From Bacillota bacterium (GTDB lineage: Bacteria > Bacillota_C > Negativicutes > Sporomusales > Sporomusaceae): a stretch of DNA of 9,727 nt. The stretch is from positions 1-9,727 of the forward strand of contig JAEZQV010000277.1 of the NCBI GenBank assembly GCA_023441125.1, given 5' to 3'. Shown here one piece after another: positions 3,582 through 9,420 of this stretch (within the stretch, counting starts at the first letter, position 1; the number at the start of each line of letters is the position of its first letter). The notes under the pieces were generated by a model. That model searched no databases and was not told the DNA's origin. It was given only the letters and a program-made list of their open reading frames with translations. The position numbers and the translations under genes are program-made.

Positions 3582-3610
3582 TTGACGTAATAAGGACATT
3601 GTTTTATAAT
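3582..3610 (+). promoter_or_regulatory. Strong sigma-A promoter of the tRNA array
   Basis: TTGACG (3582-3587), a 17-bp spacer and a perfect TATAAT (3605-3610). Transcription should start near 3617, about 12 nt before the first tRNA. The near-consensus match fits stable-RNA expression. It lies 15 bp after the rpoD stop codon. Confidence 0.92.
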
Positions 3611-3628: not shown

Positions 3629-3704
3629 TCCTCGATAGCTCAGTTGGTAGAGCAATCGGCTGTTAACCGATCGGTCGTAGGTTCGAGTCCTACTCGAGGA
3701 GCCA
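3629..3704 (+). tRNA. tRNA-Asn (GTT)
   Basis: A full 76-nt cloverleaf. The acceptor TCCTCGA (3629-3635) pairs perfectly with TCGAGGA (3694-3700); G3701 is the discriminator base and CCA is encoded at 3702-3704. The anticodon loop CTGTTAA carries GTT at 3662-3664, and the T-loop is TTCGAGT. First gene of the array, directly behind the promoter. Confidence 0.98.
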
Positions 3705-3757: not shown

Positions 3758-3832
3758 GGGCCTATAGCTCAGCGGTAGAGCAGCCGGCTCATAACCGGCT
3801 GGTCCCTGGTTCGATCCCAGGTGGGCCCACCA
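3758..3832 (+). tRNA. tRNA with CAT anticodon, probably tRNA-Ile2 (lysidine-modified)
   Basis: A full 75-nt cloverleaf. The acceptor GGGCCTA (3758-3764) pairs with TGGGCCC (3822-3828), discriminator A3829, encoded CCA 3830-3832. The anticodon loop is CTCATAA, anticodon CAT. Automatic tools would usually call this Met. The acceptor carries C4-G69 and C5-G68, the pairs that in E. coli mark tRNA-Ile2 as substrate of the lysidine synthase TilS and distinguish it from elongator Met. The acceptor start also resembles Ile2 genes more than the initiator, which needs an unpaired first position and three G-C pairs next to the anticodon loop. tRNA identity is certain; the Ile2 assignment is inference. 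Confidence 0.85.
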
Positions 3833-3861
3833 TAAGCAGTGAACCGGATTTCTAGGAGCAA
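3832..3861 (+). repeat. tRNA-spacer repeat, copy 1 (truncated, type b core)
   Basis: The head ATAAGCAG begins on the last base of the preceding tRNA's CCA end. It aligns along about 30 bp with the start of copy 3 (4069-4101): head, then ACCGG/GCCAGG, TTTCTAGGAGC against TCTTTGGGAGC, then AAAGCG against GAGAGCG. It stops at AGCG, where copy 2 begins abruptly with ATAAGCAG, so the second half of this unit is missing. Confidence 0.6.
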
Positions 3862-3957
3862 AGCGATAAGCAGAGAGCCAAGAAAGTGAGCCATTAGGCG
3901 AAGCTTGATTGGTGCGAATCGCTATCGCTTAGTTCTGAGCGTAGCGAAGAACCTCCT
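3862..3957 (+). repeat. tRNA-spacer repeat, copy 2 (complete, type a core)
   Basis: A unit of about 90 bp: head ATAAGCAGAGAG (3866-3877), a hairpin core (3878-3912), then ATCGCT duplicated in tandem (3918-3929), and a tail with GTTCT...AGAAC (3932-3952) ending ACCTCCT. The core pairs CCAA (3878-3881) with TTGG (3909-3912), then tandem G/A-A/G mismatches, then AAGT (3884-3887) with GCTT (3903-3906), with GCC-ATTA-GGC at the tip (3890-3899). It matches copy 4 with three substitutions and two small indels. Confidence 0.85.
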
Positions 3958-3958
3958 A

Positions 3959-3988
3959 ATTATCCGTACTATAACCATATTATCCGTA
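3959..3988 (+). repeat. 10-bp direct repeat upstream of tRNA-Glu
   Basis: ATTATCCGTA occurs at 3959-3968 and again at 3979-3988, starting 20 bp apart, in the short gap between repeat copy 2 and tRNA-Glu. The role is unknown. The ACTATAACC between them gives a weak -10-like TATAAC without a good -35. Confidence 0.6.
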
Positions 3989-3992
3989 TCAT

Positions 3993-4067
3993 GGCCCGTT
4001 GGTCAAGCGGTTAAGACACCGCCCTTTCACGGCGGTATCAAGGGTTCGATTCCCTTACGGGTCACCA
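3993..4067 (+). tRNA. tRNA-Glu (TTC)
   Basis: A full 75-nt cloverleaf. GGCCCGT (3993-3999) pairs with ACGGGTC (4057-4063) including one G-U pair; discriminator A4064, encoded CCA 4065-4067. The anticodon stem CCGCC/GGCGG encloses CTTTCAC, with anticodon TTC at 4026-4028. Confidence 0.98.
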
Positions 4068-4068
4068 T

Positions 4069-4141
4069 ATAAGCAGAGAGCCAGGTCTTTGGGAGCGAGA
4101 GCGACGCAAAGACCTGTGCGAATCGCTTAGTTCTGAACTGT
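4069..4141 (+). repeat. tRNA-spacer repeat, copy 3 (type b core, tail fused to copy 4)
   Basis: The head ATAAGCAGAGAG begins one base after the CCA of tRNA-Glu. Its core differs from copies 2 and 4: a perfect 9-bp stem AGGTCTTTG (4083-4091) with CAAAGACCT (4107-4115) around GAGCGAGAGCGAC-like sequence. It then rejoins the common part GTGCGAATCGCTTAGTTCTGA and ends at GTAGCG, where copy 4 starts. So one family carries two exchangeable hairpin cores between shared flanks. Confidence 0.8.
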
Positions 4142-4232
4142 AGCGATAAGCAGAGAGTCCAAGAAAGCGAGCCATTAGGCGAAGTTTGATTGGTACGAAT
4201 CGCTTAGTTCTGAGCGTAGCGAAGAACCTCCT
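4142..4232 (+). repeat. tRNA-spacer repeat, copy 4 (complete, type a core)
   Basis: A close match to copy 2: head (4146-4158 with one extra T), the same hairpin core with CCAA (4159-4162) and TTGG (4190-4193), a single ATCGCT, and the same tail to ACCTCCT (4226-4232). Within the inner stem, copy 2 has G3886-C3904 and T3887/G3903, while copy 4 has G4167/T4185 and C4168-G4184. Both changes keep pairing through G-U wobbles, which suggests selection for the folded form, although two changes are few. Confidence 0.85.
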
Positions 4233-4243
4233 ATATACATCAC

Positions 4244-4319
<76 letters not shown>

Positions 4320-4321
4320 TG

Positions 4322-4355
4322 AAAAAACCTGCGAATTTGTTTCGCAGGTTTTTTC
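4322..4355 (+). terminator. Rho-independent terminator of the tRNA array
   Basis: AAAAAACCTGCGAA (4322-4335) pairs perfectly with TTCGCAGGTTTTTT (4341-4354) around a 5-nt loop, ending in a T-run. It begins two bases after the tRNA-Val CCA. A textbook terminator that closes the rpoD/tRNA transcription unit. Confidence 0.96.
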
Positions 4356-6375: not shown

Positions 6376-6396
6376 ATACATATAAAAGAATATCTT

Positions 6397-6492
6397 GAGG
6401 CCGAGGGAGCTCATGTTATGGGCTGAGAGTGGAACTAGCGAGTTCCTTACCTCCATACCTGATCGGGATAATACCTGCGGAGGGAGGTCGTG
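6397..6492 (+). ncRNA. TPP riboswitch (THI element)
   Basis: The conserved aptamer core is plain: GAGGGAGC (6403-6410), GGCTGAGAG (6421-6429), and ACCTGATCGGGATAATACC (6457-6475) followed by TGCGGAGGGA. A variable P3 hairpin with GGAACTAGCGAGTTCC (6431-6446) lies between. P1 closes with GGCC (6399-6402) to GGTC (6486-6489). It senses thiamine diphosphate and lowers expression of downstream thiamine synthesis genes, here thiS-thiG-thiH-thiE. Confidence 0.97.
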
Positions 6493-6542
6493 TGTGTATT
6501 AAGTGCGCGTCTTTACCATTCGGTGGGACGTGTTTTTATTTT
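6489..6542 (+). terminator. Riboswitch expression platform: terminator and candidate antiterminator
   Basis: The terminator stem pairs CGCGTC (6506-6511) with GACGTG (6527-6532), then, after a bulged T6512, TTACC (6513-6517) with GGTGG (6522-6526), with loop ATTC; TTTTTATTTT (6533-6542) follows. A competing GU-rich hairpin can be drawn: CGTGTGT (6489-6495) with GTGCGCG (6503-6509), which would occupy the left arm of the terminator. It shares C6489 with the P1 stem, so TPP-stabilised P1 would favour termination. The terminator is seen directly; the switching model is inference. Confidence 0.8.
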
Positions 6543-9373: not shown

Positions 9374-9402
9374 TTGACTTGACCGACATTTAGTGATATT
9401 AT
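9374..9402 (+). promoter_or_regulatory. sigma-A promoter of rnpB
   Basis: TTGACT (9374-9379), a 17-bp spacer and TATTAT (9397-9402), 8 bp after the thiE stop. Initiation is expected near 9409, a few bases before the RNase P RNA. Strong match with correct spacing. Confidence 0.85.
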
Positions 9403-9420
9403 TAATATTCAAACACATAA

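Follow-up and report, generated by a model that had tools for sequence, protein, structure and literature searches.

Collinear blocks of modular hairpin repeats in two spacers of a bacterial tRNA gene array

Repeated sequences in the spacers of tRNA operons have been described in Escherichia coli, where the tyrT repeat and its RtT RNA lie beside tRNA 3' ends; the tyrT repeat includes a piece of the tRNA 3' end, and Rfam holds an RtT family. Spacers can also give rise to RNAs of their own, as in the case of E. coli 3'ETS-leuZ, a sponge that comes from a multi-tRNA transcript (PMC6191717). Outside tRNA operons, two kinds of short repeats need to be considered. One comprises the REP and other stem-loop sequence families of bacteria (PMC2267715). 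These are defined by their dispersal over the genome. The other comprises the MITEs, with a stated size range of 50-500 bp (PMC10969869).

The window, i.e., the whole stretch of 9,727 nucleotides analysed here, contains dnaG, rpoD, four tRNA genes (Asn, CAT, Glu and Val) and trmK, in addition to a TPP riboswitch (6393-6502) and the first part of an RNase P RNA. Apart from trmK, the gene names are our assumption from the translations, and the genes downstream of the riboswitch are presumably thiamine-related. An 18-nt direct repeat, ATCATTAATATTCAAACA, occurs with one mismatch at the end of the dnaG frame (2396-2413) and just before the RNase P RNA (9398-9415). A search with TrmK returned the window's own protein cluster (two sequences from two contigs), followed by a protein at 90%, and the closest named match was from Sporomusa aerivorans (77%). 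These matches make it probable that the host belongs to Sporomusa or is closely related to it.

The tRNA array and its repeats comprise the following features:

3582..3610, + strand: sigma-70-like promoter site TTGACG-17-TATAAT upstream of tRNA-Asn, 11/12 consensus matches
3629..3704, + strand: tRNA-Asn(GTT), no repeat 3' of the gene
3758..3832, + strand: tRNA (CAT), Met according to ARAGORN, probably Ile2; encoded CCA 3830-3832
3832..3866, + strand: C1, 5' half of a B unit, 35 nt, apparently what a 42-nt deletion between AGCGA repeats has left
3833..3958, + strand: block 1, B remnant plus A, 126 nt, in the Ile2-Glu spacer
3867..3957, + strand: u2, A unit, 91 nt; core A at 3878-3914, 6-nt tandem duplication (ATCGCT), full tail hairpin
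3993..4067, + strand: tRNA-Glu(TTC); encoded CCA 4065-4067
4068..4233, + strand: block 2, complete B plus A, 166 nt, in the Glu-Val spacer
4069..4145, + strand: u3, complete B unit, 77 nt; perfect 10-bp hairpin arms 4082-4091 / 4107-4116, shortened tail
4100..4146, + strand: two AGCGA direct repeats (4100-4104 and 4142-4146) bounding 42 nt absent from block 1
4146..4232, + strand: u4, A unit, 87 nt; core A and full tail hairpin
4244..4319, + strand: tRNA-Val(TAC), no repeat 3' of the gene
4321..4355, + strand: probable terminator, a 15-bp perfect inverted repeat ending in a T run, found by inverted-repeat search

The gene with the CAT anticodon is referred to below as Ile2, which is our presumed reading of it. 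The spacer between tRNA-Asn and this gene is 53 nt long and repeat-free, and those with repeats measure 160 nt (Ile2-Glu) and 176 nt (Glu-Val). The preliminary description of this DNA held that modular hairpin repeats fill the latter two spacers, which was borne out both by alignment against shuffled sequences and by folding. The uniform unit of about 90 bp was not recovered, the four units being 35, 91, 77 and 87 nt long, and neither was a head and tail common to all of them: the exact head ATAAGCAGAGAG is present in three of the four units, with ATAAGCAGTGAA instead in C1, and CGCTTAGTTCTGA is found in three and ACCTCCT in two (u2 and u4). As had been stated, two of the units start on or one base after an encoded CCA: the first base of C1 (3832) is the final A of the CCA of Ile2, and in u3 the ATAAGC begins at 4069, one T after the CCA of tRNA-Glu. 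The two different hairpin cores were also confirmed. Cores A and B are of nearly equal length (37-38 nt) and their likeness is marginal or none, the scores being reached by 191 (u2 against u3) and 2035 (u4 against u3) of 5000 shuffles, so that core exchange and long divergence are indistinguishable.

When the two spacers are aligned as a whole, 117 of 130 aligned bases are identical and the score is 165.5, compared to 500 dinucleotide shuffles that averaged 61.8 and reached 85.5 at most; since it exceeds all of these, the repeats are not a product of chance. The units follow each other in the same order and orientation in both spacers, and it is more fitting to regard the four "copies" originally described as a single B-A dimer that is present twice. 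Block 1 differs from block 2 in being without the 42 nt between the two AGCGA repeats and in the 6-nt tandem duplication (ATCGCT), which is in u2 and not in u4.

The shortest unit had been called a truncated copy. C1 is indeed incomplete, but it is not an independent copy, as it corresponds to the 5' half of the B unit in a B-A block. Its alignment score with u3 (43) was reached by none of 2000 shuffles, and its scores with the A units by 213 (u4) and 92 (u2), and the reading of C1 as a truncated A unit was therefore rejected. Without the first eight bases of C1, the corresponding numbers were 6 (u3), 61 (u4) and 311 (u2) of 2000. The AGCGA motif starts at 4100 and 4142 in u3, and the intervening 42 nt, which take in the entire 3' arm of hairpin B (4107-4116), are what C1 lacks, besides one 1-nt indel. 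If block 1 underwent slippage from one AGCGA copy to the other, the resulting deletion would account for both the truncation of C1 and the AGCG/ATAAGC junction. The latter had been put forward as a rule for copy junctions; as a recurrent integration junction it was dropped, because one inherited dimer junction together with a deletion at 5-bp microhomology fits better. The complete form is more likely to be the ancestral one, given that the extra 42 nt include an arm complementary to the retained arm and a tail shared with the A units.

Divergence between the blocks is uneven. Not counting indels (two and one, respectively), the A units u2 and u4 share 83 of 86 aligned bases, whereas C1 shares 27 of 35 with u3; the Fisher p is 0.002 for what is a comparison picked post hoc. 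This is as expected if intact hairpins were under constraint that was relaxed once the pairing arm had been lost, and it would fit gene conversion equally well. The three substitutions that distinguish u2 from u4 are all located in core A, each keeping or creating base pairs. In simulations, all pairs of u4 survived three random transitions in 35% of the trials with unrestricted placement and in 16% with placement at paired positions, and the pairing argument is therefore a weak one.

Fold z-scores against shuffles were -2.5 for u2, -3.7 for u3 and -3.2 for u4, so that these units fold, like members of REP families, as short non-coding hairpins; for C1 the value was -0.1. In the predicted folds of both u3 and u4, the head pairs with the tail (TAAGC.GA / TC.GCTTA) to close a stem around different cores; the A units have a tail hairpin, GTTCT...AGAAC, in addition. 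The fold of u2, with its 6-nt duplication, differs from that of u4 outside the core. Folded as a whole, the first spacer is closed by an outer stem of AGGAG (C1) and CTCCT (u2 tail) and the second folds otherwise, and these unlike folds count against one conserved structure at the block level. A 9-nt direct repeat, TTATCCGTA, is located between block 1 and tRNA-Glu (3960-3968 and 3980-3988), and in the predicted fold CGGAT of C1 is paired with ATCCG from the first of these copies. The tail ends in GAACCTCCT (3949-3957 and 4224-4232), which we take to resemble the anti-Shine-Dalgarno end of 16S rRNA, a likeness that is probably a coincidence.

Judging from the sites at its ends, the array is probably one transcription unit. 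The TTGACG-17-TATAAT site, one of three detected by a promoter scan of the region (shuffle mean 1.3), ends 18 nt upstream of tRNA-Asn, and the terminator-like hairpin follows tRNA-Val; a consensus scan of the region flagged no terminator-like site, the hairpin at 4321..4355 included. The blocks would then probably be transcribed as spacers of one tRNA precursor. As to coding capacity, it had been stated that the repeats have no protein of their own, and a protein search with the minus-strand frame over u3-u4, that frame alone, indeed gave no candidate. Two open reading frames of at least 80 aa nevertheless overlap the blocks, namely this 106-aa frame, which also crosses tRNA-Val, and an upstream extension of the trmK frame.

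Further copies were sought both in the window and elsewhere. The rest of the 9.7-kb window gave no further copy: local scores outside the array were at best within the shuffle range, and the head and tail patterns matched nowhere outside the array. With up to three mismatches allowed, TCGCTTAGTTCTGA and GCGATAAGCAGAGAG each had three matches in the window, all within the array (expected 0.63 and 0.24; three matches were reached in 3 and 2 of 200 shuffles, respectively). The first queries against plasmid and phage records included tRNA-Glu, and the 20 matches listed for each were centred on that gene (180 and 182 further records). The negative results come from repeat-only queries, for which neither u2 (plasmids) nor u3+u4 (plasmids and phages) had a match. 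Among viral contigs, the head, core and tail patterns gave either nothing or matches that were judged to be chance in view of low unit scores, apart from the bare tail hairpin. Altogether 66 viral loci were scored against the units and sequence contexts were inspected for three (L015, L016 and L067), most of the 27 head and 17 core matches being judged by their low scores alone; the best unit score was 21.5 (L047), and core-pattern loci reached up to 19.5. The bare tail hairpin, GTTCTGARCGNAGYGAAGAACC, is found in five viral contigs (L045-L049) with no head or core adjoining, and its L047 version is nearest to the tail hairpin of the window. Rfam families had no match inside the blocks at E-values up to 10, and a manA-II match (4238-4355) overlaps the second spacer by no more than its final bases. 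In the literature, exact 19-mers of the tail hairpin or its variants had no match, and the titles and opening parts of abstracts among the matches listed do not mention this repeat. A search of genome contigs with one TrmK protein led to no more than two loci, both distant, one in a Bacilli MAG and one in a Tenericutes MAG. A phylum search from these loci found a DnaG match in 389 of 392 genomes, and because the best identity among the matches listed was 42%, we take the 392 genomes to include no Negativicutes. Similarly, the TrmK family matched in three of the 14 control genomes, none of them a Negativicute.

How did the two blocks come about? The most economical reading, and in our opinion a fairly probable one, is that a small palindromic repeat was copied locally. 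Tandem duplication of a small non-coding stem-loop repeat would first have given the B-A dimer, which would then have been copied as a block of approximately 165 nt into another spacer within the array, presumably when tRNA 3' ends recombined or underwent gene conversion. Block 1 would subsequently have lost the 42 nt by slippage between the AGCGA repeats and gained the 6-nt duplication. In each complete unit, head and tail could pair into a stem that carries core A or B, and the element is probably a tolerated structured spacer without a further dedicated job. Of the recombining element proposed initially, this retains a duplication within the array, a single deletion between 5-bp direct repeats and a single slippage of 6 bp, and nothing beyond. 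Local copying has evidence against it as well. The Ile2 and Glu tRNA genes (75 nt) share 44 identities, with all six pairs of tRNA genes in the range of 40-49, and as these two are not mutual duplicates no simple tandem duplication of a tRNA together with its spacer is visible, which would speak against copying within the array; the unlike predicted folds of the two blocks, and of u2 and u4, would also count against it. The serious rival is a dispersed REP- or MITE-like palindromic family that inserted in the array more than once, perhaps with a preference for tRNA 3' ends. The units are palindromic with stable hairpins, each block starts at or one base past a CCA, and such palindromes recur, as the tail hairpin alone in five viral contigs indicates. 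The tail hairpin presumably resembles dispersed intergenic palindromes, and given this look the presence of the blocks may stem from insertions of a genomic repeat family. Independent insertions would, however, have to repeat the same B-A order and internal junction, the plasmid and phage queries found nothing, and the units contain no inverted repeat of at least 12 nt. A mobile element linked to tRNA 3' ends, as the preliminary description proposed, was not borne out: the window gave no related copy outside the array, the 3' ends of two of the four tRNAs (Asn and Val) carry no block, and two block sites are too few to establish targeting to CCA ends. We consider the dispersed family unlikely, if worth serious attention.

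It had also been suggested that the repeats are an RNA processing module, and the promoter-like site, the terminator-like hairpin and the stable predicted folds are compatible with this. Spacer hairpins could have been selected because they guide cleavage of the tRNA precursor (e.g., by RNase III) or become small RNAs. The probable single transcription unit, hairpin stability above that of shuffles, the greater divergence of the B remnant without its pairing arm relative to the intact A unit and the placement of all three u2-u4 substitutions would agree with such a role. The same divergence pattern is nevertheless predicted by gene conversion, random transitions often leave the pairs of u4 intact, the module is absent from the Asn-Ile2 spacer, no Rfam family is recognised inside the blocks and the two blocks fold differently, all of which makes a selected RNA module rather improbable. 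Very improbable, in our view, is a constant stem scaffold (12-nt head and approximately 21-nt tail) with exchangeable cores, set precisely at CCA ends and kept for the maturation of tRNA precursors or for spacer RNAs.

If local copying is true, the array represents a small and clear case of tRNA spacers acquiring and remodelling structured repeats, and the events can be put in sequence: copying of the block, microhomology deletion and then faster divergence of the half left without its pairing partner. If processing of the hairpins or their conservation in Sporomusa were established, this would offer a handle on the maturation of CCA-encoded tRNA precursors in Negativicutes.

Among the known systems, the tyrT repeat and RtT RNA resemble the blocks in their position in a tRNA-operon spacer next to tRNA 3' ends. 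Unlike in the tyrT repeat, no piece of a tRNA 3' end is seen in the units described here, and the blocks have no Rfam match to RtT RNA. With the REP and stem-loop families, the units share being short, non-coding, repeated, intergenic and hairpin-folding (PMC2267715). Compared to MITEs as outlined in PMC10969869, the units are within the 50-500 bp range, palindromic and without an own protein found, but differ in showing neither long terminal inverted repeats nor a clear target-site duplication. An inverted-repeat search (seed 9, minimum 12 nt) recovered none in the units, the sole one found being the terminator-like repeat, and terminal repeats of at least 12 nt were likewise not seen; by eye, head and tail share TAAGC/GCTTA and GA/TC. 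Inspection by eye also revealed no target-site duplication at block 1, and TATA flanks block 2 on both sides, which could be chance. Like 3'ETS-leuZ (PMC6191717), the blocks lie downstream of a tRNA, in what is probably a multi-tRNA transcript.
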